From Ornithinimicrobium pekingense DSM 21552 (GTDB lineage: Bacteria > Actinomycetota > Actinomycetes > Actinomycetales > Dermatophilaceae): a stretch of 64,000 nucleotides of DNA. Every line of letters begins with the position of its first letter. The stretch's first letter is position 1. Positions 38,685 to 43,971 of the stretch are shown here, in pieces. The position numbers and the translations under genes are program-made. A model generated the notes under the pieces. That model worked only from the letters and a program-made list of their open reading frames with translations. It was not told where the DNA came from and ran no database searches. Where the stretch lies: positions 2,868-66,867 of the forward strand of contig NZ_ATWJ01000009.1 of the NCBI RefSeq assembly GCF_000421185.1, read 5' to 3'.

Positions 38685-39332
38685 GTGGTGAGCAGAGTCC
38701 CGGGATCCCGCTCGCGGTCACGTGCCGCGAGCACCGCGGCGCTGCCCGCCGAGACGACCGTGTTCGGACGCGCTCTGGAGGGGTTGCGCGGCGTGGCCGC
38801 CCGCCCCGAGCTGGTCCTGGAGGAGGTGCCCGCGCCCACCCGGCTGGCGCCGCACGCCGTGGCTCTCTCTGGCGAGGTCGTCCCCTCCTACCTCGACGAG
38901 GACGACGACCCGGCGGCGACCGGGCGTTTCGTCCTCCTGCACGACCCCGACGCGCCCGAGCCGTGGGAGGGCGAGTGGCGGGTCGTCACCTACGCCAAGG
39001 CGCGGATGGAGCCCGAGGTCGGGCAGGACCCGCTCGCGGGGCAGGCCGGCTGGTCGTGGCTGACCGACGCGGTCGAGGCCGGGGGACTCGACTGGGCCGC
39101 CCCCGCCGGGACCGTGACCTGCGTCTCCTCGGAGAGCTTCGGCGCTCTCGACGGGCGCGAGCCCAGCGTGGAGCTGGAGATCCGGGCCTCCTGGACACCG
39201 GTCCTCACCCCGGGCGCCGAGGGCCGCGAGCTGGCGGGGCACCTGGGTGCGTGGGGAGACCTGCTGTGCACGCTGGCCGGACTGCCACCTTTGCCCGAGG
39301 GCGTCGTCGCGCTCTCCGGCCCGCGCCGGTGA
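38685..39332 (+). CDS. DUF3000 family protein
   Basis: The 215-aa protein matches the actinobacterial DUF3000 family: [91 protein letters not shown] and YVSSESFG-type [30 protein letters not shown]. No function is known. Start is GTG at 38685 or 38688. Its stop overlaps the GTG of rnd by four bases, the pairing usually seen for this family. Confidence 0.88.
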
Positions 39333-40651
39333 GCGGGGCTGACGCGGCGCGGGAGCCAGCGGACGACCCGGACCTGGCTGTGCCCGTCCCTGGAGACCCC
39401 GACCTCGACCCTGACCCCACCTCCGACTACGAGCGGGTCGACGTGCCTGCCGAGGGTGTGCCGCACGTCGTCGACACCGAGCAGGGTCTCGCCGAGGTCG
39501 TCGACGCCCTGAGCCGGGGCACGGGGCCCATCGCGGTGGACGCCGAGCGGGCCTCCGGCTTCCGTTACGGGCAGAAGGCCTATCTCGTGCAGCTGCGCCG
39601 CCGGGGGTCGGGCACGTGGCTGATCGACCCCGTCCCCTTCGAGGACCTGTCGGCCCTCGACGAGGTGCTCGCCCAGGACGAGTGGGTGCTGCACGCCGCG
39701 ACGCAGGACATCCCGTGCCTCGACGAGGCCGGCCTGCGACCCCGGGCCCTGTTCGACACCGAGCTCGGCGCCCGGCTGGCCGGTCTGCCGCGGGTGGGCC
39801 TGTCCGCCTCCCTGGAGTACTACCTCGGCGTCACCCTGGCCAAGGAGCACTCCGCCGTGGACTGGTCCACCCGGCCGCTGCCGGAACCCTGGCTGCGGTA
39901 TGCCGCGCTCGACGTCGAGCTCCTCGTCGAGCTGCGCGACCGGATGGAGCGCGACCTCGCCGAGCAGGGCAAGCTGGAGTGGGCACGCCAGGAGTTCGCG
40001 GCGCTCGTCGACTTCACCCCGCGCGACCACAACGCCAACGGCGACGCCTGGCGTCGCACCTCCGGCATCCACCGCCTGCGCAAGCCGCGCAACAACGCCG
40101 CGCTGCGCGAGCTGTGGCTGGCCCGCGACGAGATCGCCCGCGAGCGGGACGTCTCCCCCGGGCGTGTGGTGCCCGACAGCACCCTGGTCGACCTCGCCAC
40201 CCGCATGCCGCGGCAGGCCGCGGCCCTGGCCCCCGCCAAGCCCGATCGGTCGCGTTCACGCCAGCGCCGCGCGGAGCAGGGCCTGCTGCGCTACCAGCGC
40301 ACCTGGTTGGCCGCCCTCAGACGGGCCGCCGAGCTGCCCGACGACGAGCTGCCCGAGCCCACCCCGCGGGGCGACGGCCCGCCGCCTGCGAGGGCCTGGC
40401 CCGAGCGCGACCCCGCGGCCGCCGACCGGCTCGCGCTGGCCCGGACCGAGATCGCCGCCCTCTCGGAGCGGCTCGACATCCCGGCCGAGAACCTGATGAC
40501 CCCCGAGAGCGTGCGCCGGGTGCTGTGGCGACCGCCGCGGCCCGCCACCGAGGAGGCGGTCGACCAGGCCTTCGCCGACCTGGGCGCGCGGCCGTGGCAG
40601 CGCGAGCTCATCACCCCCGTCGTGGTGGCCGCCGTCGACGCACACCCCTGA
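39329..40651 (+). CDS. rnd: Ribonuclease D-type 3'-5' exonuclease
   Basis: The 440-aa protein trims tRNA 3' ends. After an acidic N terminus it has the DEDDy exonuclease: IAVDAERASGFRYGQKAYLVQLRRRG (Asp-Glu of motif I), AATQDIPCLDEAGL and FDTELGARLAGLPRVGLSASLEYYLGVTLAKEHSAVDWSTRPLPEPWLRYAALDVELLVELRDRM with the final Tyr and Asp. Two HRDC-like regions follow (LRELWLARDEIARERDVSPGRVVPDSTLVDLA; LSERLDIPAENLMTPESVRRVLW). GTG at 39329 overlaps the DUF3000 stop. Confidence 0.93.
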   Translation: MSGADAAREPADDPDLAVPVPGDPDLDPDPTSDYERVDVPAEGVPHVVDTEQGLAEVVDALSRGTGPIAVDAERASGFRYGQKAYLVQLRRRGSGTWLIDPVPFEDLSALDEVLAQDEWVLHAATQDIPCLDEAGLRPRALFDTELGARLAGLPRVGLSASLEYYLGVTLAKEHSAVDWSTRPLPEPWLRYAALDVELLVELRDRMERDLAEQGKLEWARQEFAALVDFTPRDHNANGDAWRRTSGIHRLRKPRNNAALRELWLARDEIARERDVSPGRVVPDSTLVDLATRMPRQAAALAPAKPDRSRSRQRRAEQGLLRYQRTWLAALRRAAELPDDELPEPTPRGDGPPPARAWPERDPAAADRLALARTEIAALSERLDIPAENLMTPESVRRVLWRPPRPATEEAVDQAFADLGARPWQRELITPVVVAAVDAHP

Positions 40652-40685
40652 CCTGCCAGGACGGCGCCGTCCGTTCGTCACCGTT

Positions 40686-40701
40686 ATCTCATATATGTGA
40701 T
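40686..40701 (+). promoter_or_regulatory. AT-rich palindrome before the XRE-MurA gene
   Basis: The 16-bp sequence from 40686 to 40701 (ATCTCATATATGTGAT) is palindromic at seven of eight positions and ends 15 bases before the ATG at 40717. Inner CATATATG is perfect. In this GC-rich region it stands out. XRE-type repressors usually bind such palindromes, so it is a candidate operator for the HTH domain encoded downstream. Confidence 0.65.
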
Positions 40702-40716
40702 CTAGAGTGGGGCAGC

Positions 40717-42246
40717 ATGACTGAGAGCTACCTGTCGCGCATCGGCGGCCTGATCCGTGACGCCCGGCGCCACAAGGACCTCACCCAGGCCGAGCTGGCC
40801 GAGCTGCTGGGCACCAGCCAGAGCGCGGTCGCCCGCATCGAGCAGGGCAAGCAGAACCTGTCCCTGGAGATGATCGCCCGCATCGGCGAGAAGCTCGACT
40901 CCGAGATCGTGCAGGTCTCCTCCGGCGTCCCGCAGAACCTGCGGATCGAGGGCGGCGTGAAGCTCTCGGGCGAGATCGACGTGCGCACCTCCAAGAACGC
41001 CGCGGTCGCGCTCCTGTGCGCCTCCCTGCTCAACAAGGGCCGGACGACCCTGCGCAACCTCGCCAGGATCGAGGAGGTCAACCGCATCACCGAGGTGCTG
41101 ACCTCGATCGGCTTCAAGATCCGCTGGCTGCCCGACTCCTCCGACCTGGAGATCGTCCCGCCCGAGCGCATCGACCTCGACGCGATGGACGAGACGGCCG
41201 CGCGCCGCACCCGCACGATCATCATGTTCCTCGGCCCGCTGCTGCACGAGTACGAGCGCTTCGAGCTGCCCTACGCCGGCGGGTGCGACCTCGGCACCCG
41301 CACGGTCGAGCCGCACATGATCGCGCTGCGCCACTTCGGCCTCGACGTGACCGCGACCACCGGCTCCTACCACGCCTCCGTCGACCGCACCAAGAGCCCG
41401 GCGCGCCCGATCGTGCTCACCGAGCGCGGTGACACCGTCACCGAGAACGTCCTGCTGGCCGCCGCCCGCCACCCGGGCACCACCGTCATCCGCAACGCCT
41501 CGTCCAACTACATGGTCCAGGACCTGTGCGTCTTCCTGCAGCAGCTGGGCGTGACGGTCGAGGGCCTGGGCACCACGACGCTGACCGTCACCGGTGTCCC
41601 GGAGATCGACAAGGACATCGAGTACTCCCCCTCCGAGGACCCCATCGAGGCGATGAGCCTGCTCGCCGCCGGCGTGGTCACCGGCAGCGAGATCACGATC
41701 CGCCGGGTGCCGATCGAGTTCATGGAGATCGAGCTGGCCGTGCTGGAGTCGATGGGCTTCGCCTGCGAGCTGTCCCCGGAGTACGTCTCGGCCAACGGCC
41801 ACACCCGGCTCGTGGACCTGCGCACCATCCCCGGTCCGCTCAAGGCGCCGCTGGACAAGATCCACCCGCTGCCCTTCCCGGGCCTGAACATCGACAACCT
41901 GCCGTTCTTCGCGATCATCGCCGCGTGCGCTCAGGGCTCGACGCTCATCCACGACTGGGTCTACGAGAACCGCGCCATCTACCTCACCGAGCTCACGACC
42001 CTCGGTGCCAAGGTGCACCTGATGGACCCGCACCGGGTGATGATCGAGGGTCCGACGCGCTGGCGTGCCGGCGAGATCATGTGCCCTCCGGCGCTGCGCC
42101 CCGGGGTCGTCATCCTGCTGGCCATGCTCGCCGCCCCGGGCACGTCGGTGCTGCGCAACGTCTACGTGATCAACCGCGGCTACGAGGACCTGGCCACCCG
42201 GCTCAACGCCCTCGGCGCCCGGATCCAGACCTTCCGCGACATCTGA
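40717..42246 (+). CDS. MurA-like enolpyruvyl transferase with N-terminal XRE helix-turn-helix
   Basis: The 509-aa protein begins with a Cro/CI-type XRE domain (residues 5-60, RHKDLTQAELAELLGTSQSAVARIEQGKQNLSLEMIARIGEKL) and continues as a MurA/EPSP synthase fold from about residue 75. MurA-type catalytic residues appear in order: Lys93 in TSKNAA (E. coli Lys22), Cys190 in YAGGCDLGTRTVEP (Cys115), Asp393 in FPGLNIDN (Asp305) and Arg487 in NRGYE (Arg397), with spacings close to those of MurA. The enzyme may thus transfer enolpyruvate to UDP-GlcNAc and bind DNA. ATG 40717 comes just after a palindrome. It lies 65 bases after rnd. A second, canonical MurA is not in the window. Confidence 0.85.
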   Translation: MTESYLSRIGGLIRDARRHKDLTQAELAELLGTSQSAVARIEQGKQNLSLEMIARIGEKLDSEIVQVSSGVPQNLRIEGGVKLSGEIDVRTSKNAAVALLCASLLNKGRTTLRNLARIEEVNRITEVLTSIGFKIRWLPDSSDLEIVPPERIDLDAMDETAARRTRTIIMFLGPLLHEYERFELPYAGGCDLGTRTVEPHMIALRHFGLDVTATTGSYHASVDRTKSPARPIVLTERGDTVTENVLLAAARHPGTTVIRNASSNYMVQDLCVFLQQLGVTVEGLGTTTLTVTGVPEIDKDIEYSPSEDPIEAMSLLAAGVVTGSEITIRRVPIEFMEIELAVLESMGFACELSPEYVSANGHTRLVDLRTIPGPLKAPLDKIHPLPFPGLNIDNLPFFAIIAACAQGSTLIHDWVYENRAIYLTELTTLGAKVHLMDPHRVMIEGPTRWRAGEIMCPPALRPGVVILLAMLAAPGTSVLRNVYVINRGYEDLATRLNALGARIQTFRDI

Positions 42247-42301: not shown

Positions 42302-43096
42302 ATGACCATCGTCTGGGACGAGCGCGGCGGCGCCACGGTCGAGCGGGACGGCCACCCGCAGTCCTACGTGAACCCGGATGACCCGTTGCTGCTGGTCTTC
42401 GAGTACGTCCAGCAGTTCGCGCTCGTCCTCGAGGCGCTGCGCCCCGACCCCGCCCCGCTGGCGGTGACGCACGTCGGCGGGGCGGGTATGACGCTCGCCC
42501 GCTGGGTGCACCGGGTGCACCCGAGGTCCCCCCAGATCGTCCTCGAGCCCGACACCGCGCTCACCGAGCTGGTCCGGCGGGAGCTGCCGCTGCCCCGCGG
42601 GCACCGCGTCCGGGTGCGCCCGGTGACGGGCCAGGAGGGCGTCGCCGGGCTGCGGGACGCCTCGGCCGACGTGGTGGTCGTCGACGCCTACGACCAGGGT
42701 CGCGTTCCCCCGGAGCTCGCCGGCTCGAGGTGGGTCCGCGAGCTGGACCGCGTCGTCGCCCCGGACGGGCTGGTGCTCGTCAACGCCGCCGACGAGCGCG
42801 GCCTGCGGTGGGTGGCACGGCTGTGCGCGACCCTGCGGGAACGTTTCGCCCACGTCGGCCAGCTCGTCCTGCGGGAGGTCGCCGCCGGCAAGCGCTACGG
42901 CAACGTCGTCGTCGTGGCCTCGCGCCGGCCGCTCGACGACGTCAGTCTCACGCGGGCCGCCGCCCGGGCCCCCTTCCCCTCCACCTGGCGCAGCAGCGAG
43001 CAGGTGGTCCGCCTCAGCGCAGGCGCGCCGCCGTTCGGCGAGATCGGCGAACCCTCGCCTCCCCCGCCGGACGGCGGCGTGCTGCGGCTGCGGTGA
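42302..43096 (+). CDS. Spermidine-synthase-like protein
   Basis: The 264-aa product has the Rossmann-type methyltransferase fold of spermidine synthases: AVTHVGGAGMTLARWVHRVHPRSPQIVLEPDTALTELVRRELPL (motif I region), then RVRPVTGQEGVAGLRDASADVVVVDAYDQGRVPPELAGSRWVRELDRVVAPDGLVLVNAAD. The second-domain Asp that holds polyamines is in VVVDAYDQG. Many actinobacterial proteins of this type are fused-MFS spermidine-synthase homologues of unproven activity. The N-terminal strand domain is short. ATG at 42302; the gene follows the XRE-MurA gene by 55 bases. Confidence 0.8.
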   Translation: MTIVWDERGGATVERDGHPQSYVNPDDPLLLVFEYVQQFALVLEALRPDPAPLAVTHVGGAGMTLARWVHRVHPRSPQIVLEPDTALTELVRRELPLPRGHRVRVRPVTGQEGVAGLRDASADVVVVDAYDQGRVPPELAGSRWVRELDRVVAPDGLVLVNAADERGLRWVARLCATLRERFAHVGQLVLREVAAGKRYGNVVVVASRRPLDDVSLTRAAARAPFPSTWRSSEQVVRLSAGAPPFGEIGEPSPPPPDGGVLRLR

Positions 43097-43191
43097 CGTT
43101 CGTCGAGGCGACCTCACCCCCAGGGGCGTGATCTGCGCCCGGTGGCGTGCTGATGGGTGATGTCCGGCCCCGTCCGCCGTAGGCTGGCGCC

Positions 43192-43971
43192 GTGCGCACG
43201 TCATACCTGGACCACCCCGGGCCCATCCCGATGGCCCACCGGGGGTTCGACGTCGGCGGGCTGGAGAACTCGATGCGCGCCTTCGAGGCGGCCGTTGCGC
43301 TGGGCTACCGCTACGTCGAGACCGACGTGCACGCGACGAACGACGGGCACGTGGTCGCCTTCCACGACGAGACCCTCGACCGCGTCACCGACCGCGTGGG
43401 CACGATCACCGAGATGTCCTGGCGCCAGGTCTCCCGCGCCCGGATCGGCGGCGTGGAGCCGGTCCCGCTGCTGGAGGACCTGCTCGGGTCCTGGCCCGAG
43501 CTGCGCCTCAACATCGACATCAAGTCCCCCGGGGCGATCCTGCCGCTGGTGCGCGCCATCGAGCGCACGCGGGCGCACGACCGCGTGTGCGTCACCTCCT
43601 TCTCCGACCAGCGGCGCCAGGCCGCGGTGATGCGGCTGACCCAGCCGGTGGCGACGTCCGCGGGGCAGAGCAGCACCGCGGCGTTCCGCGCCGCGGCCTC
43701 CCTGCCGCCGCTGGTGCGCTCCTCGGTCGTCTCCAAGGCCCTGCGGTCCGTGGACGGCGTCCAGGTCCCGCCGCACCGTTACGGCATCGAGGTCGTCAAC
43801 CCCACGACCGTGACGGCGGCGCACGAGGTGGGCCGGTTCGTGCACGTGTGGACCGTCAACGACGTGCCGGAGATGGTGCGCCTGCTCGACCTCGGTGTGG
43901 ACGGGATCATGACCGACCGCGCCGACCTGCTCAAGGACGTGCTGGTCGCCCGCGGCCAGTGGCCCGGGTGA
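43192..43971 (+). CDS. Glycerophosphodiester phosphodiesterase
   Basis: The 259-aa protein hydrolyses glycerophosphodiesters or related lipid head groups. GDPD signatures: MAHRGFDVGGLENSMRAFEAAVALGYRYVETDVHATNDGHVVAFHDETLDRVTDRVGTITEMSW, with His-Arg-Gly, Glu-Asn-Ser, Glu-Thr-Asp and His-Asp in order, then LNIDIKSPGAILPLV, RVCVTSFSD and VHVWTVNDVPEMVRLLDLGVDGIMTDRADLL. No signal peptide is visible. GTG at 43192; stop is three bases from the convergent DUF6541-like gene. Confidence 0.94.
   Translation: MRTSYLDHPGPIPMAHRGFDVGGLENSMRAFEAAVALGYRYVETDVHATNDGHVVAFHDETLDRVTDRVGTITEMSWRQVSRARIGGVEPVPLLEDLLGSWPELRLNIDIKSPGAILPLVRAIERTRAHDRVCVTSFSDQRRQAAVMRLTQPVATSAGQSSTAAFRAAASLPPLVRSSVVSKALRSVDGVQVPPHRYGIEVVNPTTVTAAHEVGRFVHVWTVNDVPEMVRLLDLGVDGIMTDRADLLKDVLVARGQWPG

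Follow-up and report, generated by a model that had tools for sequence, protein, structure and literature searches.

A MurA lineage of actinomycetes with an N-terminal XRE domain and a putative operator in its own promoter

Described systems closest to HTH-MurA

Regulation of MurA has been described mainly for the protein itself, through CwlM in mycobacteria and PASTA-kinase control in Firmicutes, and trigger enzymes, i.e. active enzymes that also repress transcription, are exemplified by BirA and PutA. The gene described here encodes a MurA (UDP-GlcNAc enolpyruvyl transferase) preceded by a helix-turn-helix domain, hereafter HTH-MurA, and lies in a window of 64,000 nucleotides (the whole stretch of DNA that was analysed) from Ornithinimicrobium pekingense DSM 21552. 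BirA and PutA differ from it in fold, their ligands are known and their regulons are small. No example of a trigger-enzyme MurA was found among the matches listed in the open-access full-text literature, and neither HTH, fusion nor autoregulation of MurA was found among the best 2-20 matches listed there. The MurA proteins of Escherichia coli and Enterobacter cloacae share with HTH-MurA the fold and the positions of the catalytic Lys, Asn, Cys, Asp and Arg residues, with 26-30% of residues identical across the domain in the structure matches, whereas HTH-MurA has an extra N-terminal XRE domain, forms its own long-stem clade and scores under the TIGR01072 cut-off. Outside MurA, the closest HTH models are those of PezA/HipB/Y4mF-type antitoxins (TIGR03070, 51 bits; PezA, 29.7 bits), although HTH-MurA scores under the cut-offs of those models and has no toxin partner. 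According to the excerpted text of PMC3602430, BzdR is an XRE HTH fused to a shikimate-kinase-like domain, a benzoyl-CoA repressor that regulates promoters; like HTH-MurA, it joins an XRE DNA-binding domain to an enzyme fold, but it is a regulator that arose from an enzyme, whereas HTH-MurA seems to be active and essential, with its own gene as the putative target.

In Streptomyces coelicolor, SCO5998 is called MurA2, one of two UDP-GlcNAc transferases, and adjoins the aconitase gene SCO5999; a DmdR1 site is predicted between the two genes, and expression of SCO5998 is anti-correlated with that of dmdR1 (PMC12161575, in excerpt). Since a SigB-dependent promoter has also been reported for this gene (PMC8346170, in excerpt), other regulators may act there. 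Judged by gene neighbourhood and description, SCO5998 is likely an orthologue of HTH-MurA, which is supported by aconitase motifs found on the divergent strand about 0.6 kb and 3 kb from HTH-MurA in two Streptomyces genomes; no such motifs were detected near the gene in nine loci, two of them from Streptomycetaceae with long flanks and the others with short ones. As excerpted, SCO5998 has a canonical MurA partner, whereas the HTH-MurA of the window stands alone in its genome. The excerpts of the open-access full-text literature yielded no description of an HTH, an operator or autoregulation for SCO5998, and those of PMC3602430, PMC4255298 and PMC8780764 contained no MurA regulation.

Domains, identity and distribution of HTH-MurA

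The HTH-MurA coding sequence (40717..42246, forward strand) runs from an ATG at 40717 to a TGA ending at 42246 and encodes 509 amino acid residues, as read from the open reading frame and profile matches. The first-pass annotation had placed a Cro/CI-type HTH before an enolpyruvyl transferase, and Pfam profiles bear this out: HTH_3 matches residues 13-62 (47.7 bits versus a cut-off of 23) and EPSP_synthase residues 78-494 (146.7 bits versus 22.8), while HTH_31, with 41 bits versus a cut-off of 27, likewise identifies the HTH as being of the Cro/CI type. In the AlphaFold2 model (mean pLDDT 88.7, pTM 0.80, computed from an alignment of 38 orthologues), the helices associated with the XRE/Cro-CI type domain (residues 13-62; 40753..40902, forward strand) span residues 3-19, 24-31, 35-42 and 50-60. 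The second HTH helix and the loop after it (residues 33-47, TSQSAVARIEQGKQN; 40813..40857, forward strand) are the presumed DNA-reading part, where T33, S34, Q35, A37, R40, Q46 and N47 are each kept in 134-136 of 137 orthologues. A linker of low conservation and low pLDDT (residues 63-73; 40903..40935, forward strand) leads to the MurA domain (residues 74-506; 40936..42234, forward strand), which was delimited by profiles, active-site residues and structure matches. Among the best 50 PDB matches of the model, the 42 top-ranked were all MurA (TMt 0.87-0.93), with the first NikO in rank 43 and the first EPSP synthase in rank 46; the solved structures closest by sequence were MurA proteins too. 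Profiles and structure matches thus agree on an EPSP-synthase-superfamily fold closest to MurA. The best NCBI model, PRK09369 (NCBIfam MurA subfamily), gave 325.5 bits, over its cut-off of 297, and the MurA equivalog TIGR01072 gave 310 bits, under its cut-off of 392.7.

The four catalytic residues named in the first-pass annotation, Lys93, Cys190, Asp393 and Arg487, are present and aligned to MurA positions. Nine active-site positions (K93, N94, R166, C190, R195, D393, R419, R461 and R487), whose E. coli MurA counterparts we take to be Lys22, Asn23, Arg91, Cys115, Arg120, Asp305, Arg331, Arg371 and Arg397, respectively, are invariant in 38 aligned orthologues. Eight of them, the count leaving out Arg419, are invariant in 137/137 full-length orthologues, a set without locus L049, where the gene is in two pieces. 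Cys190 is among these eight, and canonical MurA copies of the family (L149-L171) carry Asp at the corresponding position in 19/23 cases and Cys in 4/23. Full-length family matches of the window protein show 71-94% identity. In the tree, the HTH-MurA lineage forms one clade (SH-aLRT 100) with a long stem, set apart from the canonical copies; the program warned of long branches, so that the root position is tentative. A recent fusion of an HTH onto canonical MurA was rejected on account of this separate clade. These comparisons suggest that HTH-MurA is a separate, ancient lineage of MurA with its own repressor domain, as part of the autorepression explanation weighed below.

The genome comprises 3.85 Mb (completeness 100, contamination 0.24) and contains two EPSP synthase matches, namely HTH-MurA and one reading as AroA; a search with the MurA model likewise returned HTH-MurA and then AroA, at 33.5 bits. 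Going beyond the first-pass annotation, HTH-MurA is therefore the sole MurA of the genome, a second one being absent from the EPSP synthase and MurA profile searches of this 100%-complete assembly. MurB is present, so that the MurA step is expected in this genome. Within the family, the HTH-MurA lineage occurs in 77/79 genomes; the match in G052 begins only at residue 59, and the gene is split in two in G030. Of the family genomes, 23/79 have a MurA that passes the TIGR01072 cut-off, including the only two without the HTH lineage (G028 and G065), which have two TIGR01072-level copies each; in 56/79 genomes no MurA besides the HTH lineage passes the family cut-off. One of these 56 (G054) has an intact HTH-MurA and, elsewhere in the genome (C1:2441054-2441990), two adjacent fragments matching both ends of canonical MurA, which look like a broken canonical copy and the loss in progress of the canonical enzyme. 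In G030, where no other MurA was found, and in G594, the two pieces of the HTH-MurA gene read in different frames, which may reflect a sequencing error or a true break. Class-wide, an HTH-MurA match at E <= 1e-100 was obtained in 128/394 genomes and 25/122 genera. A contig scan revealed at least 550 relatives, with 80 named loci kept among the matches listed, which include Ornithinimicrobium, Serinicoccus, Knoellia, Terrabacter, Nocardioides, Kitasatospora, Streptomyces, Actinopolymorpha and Haloactinopolyspora.

Upstream of HTH-murA, an RNase D-like 3'-5' exonuclease with an HRDC domain (39329-40651) ends 65 nt before the start of the gene, while a 264-aa frame and a GDPD phosphodiesterase (42302-43971) lie downstream; a GDPD gene adjoins HTH-murA in Nocardioides luteus (L136) too.

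A conserved palindrome in the HTH-murA promoter

The near-perfect 16-bp palindrome reported by the first-pass annotation 15 bases before the ATG was found again as ATCTCATATATGTGAT at 40686-40701, with 14/16 positions symmetric and an imperfect right arm. It belongs to an operator-like palindrome of 20 bp, TATCTCATATATGTGATCTA (40685..40704, forward strand), which is a variant of the class-wide 18-bp site TATCTCANATNTGAGATA; this longer form, with two extra bases, occurs in 8/134 sites, all in the nearest clade of the window. Shuffles of the window gave 0.00 expected matches to ATCTCATATATGTGAT at <=3 mismatches. A palindrome not conserved in orthologues would, according to the first-pass annotation, have spoken against its proposal, which survived this test: the site was identified upstream of 134 of 138 distinct orthologous genes from Intrasporangiaceae, Streptomyces, Nocardioides and others, a site being called where >=12/16 positions of an 18-nt stretch, lying no more than 120 nt upstream, match TATCTCANATNTGAGATA; this cut-off of 12, like the helix pattern used below, was set after looking at the data. 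The 138 loci were kept from 177 with a match, after 3 low or partial ones and 36 duplicates had been dropped.

The cut-off was reached by 0.18% of 2760 shuffled upstream regions, by 3/962,479 flanking 18-mers (none above 12), and by 2/2143 control windows, cut upstream of the other open frames of those 80 loci after masking of the operator region, both hits being the same stretch inside HTH-murA itself. An unmasked control, in which 62/2161 windows scored >=13, was not used, many of these windows containing the operator itself. Upstream of canonical or other-class murA genes, the site was found in 0/36 cases, with a best score of 9 (36/37 loci had enough upstream DNA). Information content reaches up to 2 bits within the site, compared with 0.02 to 0.47 in the 29 columns preceding it. 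Symmetry is seen at the outer positions (AT 126/126, CG 126/126, AT 123/126) and not at the variable position 8/11 (50/126). By these comparisons of aligned and shuffled sequences, the palindrome is not there by chance.

The -10 consensus of actinobacteria is TAnnnT. In another point beyond the first-pass annotation, the palindrome runs into a -10-like element of this form, TAGAGT (40703..40708, forward strand), which shares its first two bases with the end of the operator; in 133/134 sites a TAnnnT begins at the final TA. The ATG of HTH-murA in the window follows 8 nt after the hexamer; in 105/134 cases the distance from hexamer to first in-frame start codon is 6-8 nt, the other 29 having a mechanical candidate nearer (-4 to +5). 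No conserved -35 element was seen in the 134 aligned sites. Since the start codon comes directly after the -10 element, the HTH-murA transcript is probably leaderless, and a putative site covering the promoter of such a gene would occupy the classic position of a repressor. Leaderless mRNAs account for 22.2% in Streptomyces avermitilis (PMC8780764, in excerpt).

The site is almost private to the HTH-murA promoter. The 20-nt form occurs once in the whole genome at <=3 mismatches, and a search of the same genome allowing one mismatch returned five palindromic places, four of them away from HTH-murA. In 30 chosen genomes, the core CTCANATNTGAG was found in 24 copies distributed over 19 genomes, in each of which (19/19) one copy lies at the HTH-murA promoter, the remaining five copies lying elsewhere; the reversed control pattern occurred twice. 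The 11 genomes without a core match comprise nine with HTH-MurA, which have variant sites where these were read, and two without the gene. Ten extra-site regions were read (six sites from five other genomes and the four places in the own genome), and the full arrangement with TAnnnT after it was absent in all of them. A wider regulon is not supported by these comparisons, with a near-unique site and extra sites that lack the -10 arrangement. Three of the ten regions, in three genomes (L263, L264 and L266), have a different palindrome, TGTCTCANATNTGAGACA, away from HTH-murA and with no -10 after it. The short pattern TCTCANATNTGAG is present in 149/394 class genomes, compared with 128/394 for HTH-MurA, and was rejected as a class-wide marker of the gene as too loose, with many matches in small genomes lacking it; because the core pattern also occurs in class genomes without HTH-MurA, its presence by itself does not mark the gene cleanly.

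Joint loss of site and helix, and the control of HTH-murA

Site and recognition helix were scored in 170 loci, consisting of the 138 and 32 further distinct ones (8 of 40 further loci were dropped as duplicates; the 40 were hand-chosen, partly for looking divergent or lacking the short pattern). Both features are kept in 165 loci and both lost in four; the site alone is lost in one and the helix alone in none. The four both-lost loci fall in three lineages: in L141 and L049 (the latter from G030), both of Arsenicicoccus type, T33-S-Q-S and the residues after it are changed, as they are likewise in L096, an Intrasporangiaceae MAG, and in L221 (G052) no HTH was found in any of six frames of the 2.2 kb read. 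A genus mate of G052, G009 (L035), has both site and helix. In the single discordant locus, L122, the helix is kept and the site lost (9/16); the related MAG locus L105 has an intact HTH and an eroded site (13/16), and the operator is possibly changing in this pair. On the tree of the enzyme part, three HTH changes and four site changes are needed, giving three independent loss pairs, all in the same direction; three losses are too few for the phylogenetic sign test to reach significance (p 0.25). Three genomes (G052, G066 and G030) retain the enzyme part as their only MurA though the HTH, whose function seems to be gone, is lost or decayed, which indicates that catalysis and regulation are separable and that catalysis is the more strongly kept.

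Because site and recognition helix are lost together, HTH-MurA very probably controls its own production by binding and repressing its own promoter. To the explanation as a whole, an autorepressing MurA lineage with a dimeric XRE domain on one promoter palindrome and negative autoregulation, we assign a probability of roughly 0.8. The N-terminal XRE domain would bind, as a dimer, a single palindrome in the promoter spacer that reaches into the -10 element of the leaderless gene, and the bound protein would block RNA polymerase; abundant enzyme would then lower murA transcription, keeping the committed step in homeostasis. In this scheme the binding to DNA, the dimeric state, a repressing as opposed to an activating effect and the leaderless transcript are inferred from comparative data. 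The first-pass annotation had proposed repression of HTH-MurA's own or other genes; the comparative evidence (134/138 sites; joint pattern 165/1/0/4) speaks strongly for the former part, and the latter is not supported, the site being close to unique in the genome.

The palindrome could instead be the site of another regulator, the HTH of MurA being a relic or otherwise used, as might be thought from L122, where the site goes while the helix stays, and from the prediction of a DmdR1 site close to S. coelicolor SCO5998 (PMC12161575, in excerpt). We consider this improbable, given that the helix is decayed or lost only where the site is gone (4/4, in three lineages, against 0/165 with the site), that the site is nearly private to HTH-murA and that G028 and G065, which lack HTH-MurA, also lack the core site. 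Lower still is the chance of an ordinary promoter or leader element, the block serving as a sigma-factor motif or folding as RNA: it does abut the -10 element in 133/134 cases, but it has dyad symmetry with conserved outer arms around a variable position 8/11, lies upstream of the presumed transcription start, occurs upstream of none of the 36 canonical murA genes and in hardly any of the 2143 other windows, and goes when the HTH goes. The long stem branch away from canonical MurA and the score under the TIGR01072 cut-off would fit an enolpyruvyl transferase acting on some other substrate, or a regulator that has no catalytic activity. This is very unlikely for a protein in which the MurA catalytic positions are all invariant, which is the only MurA homologue in 56/79 family genomes, with MurB present in the genome of the window, and whose enzyme part stays the only MurA despite HTH loss or decay in G052, G030 and G066.

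A further proposal, made by the first-pass annotation for UDP-GlcNAc or PEP, concerns how autorepression might be gated. MurA closes on UDP-GlcNAc, changing shape with it, and holds UDP-MurNAc, which also appears in PDB titles among the structure matches of the model; these properties make ligand gating attractive. HTH-MurA might accordingly act as a trigger enzyme, in which occupancy of the active site by UDP-GlcNAc/PEP or UDP-MurNAc would switch DNA binding and transcription would follow precursor supply. This version we regard as tentative and less likely than not. Enzyme and HTH share one chain wherever the operator is kept, and a full active site stands beside the HTH in 137/137 orthologues; against it, plain concentration-dependent autorepression accounts for all the sequence data, and the linker is variable and modelled with low confidence. 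On average, 49% of rows share the window residue at positions 63-77, versus 80% for the HTH and 78% for the catalytic part, and pLDDT falls under 50 at residues 65-71 of the AlphaFold2 model, so that a rigid allosteric link is not favoured and the linker is probably flexible. Ligand sensing is the weakest step of the reading, and the data do not require it.

If the autorepression reading is true, the committed step of wall synthesis would be under direct transcriptional control by a MurA acting at its own promoter, and this in a group to which Streptomyces and Nocardioides belong; the target being as small as one site, every step would be testable in one strain. It is conceivable, at the lower confidence given to gating, that a large part of the actinomycetes has a one-protein, one-operator loop built on an often essential MurA whose DNA binding is gated by UDP-GlcNAc, PEP or UDP-MurNAc, in which case cell-wall precursor supply would directly set murA transcription. 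For 56 of the 79 family genomes, the Cys-type HTH enzyme is the only MurA, in place of the canonical actinobacterial form, in which 19/23 family copies carry Asp.
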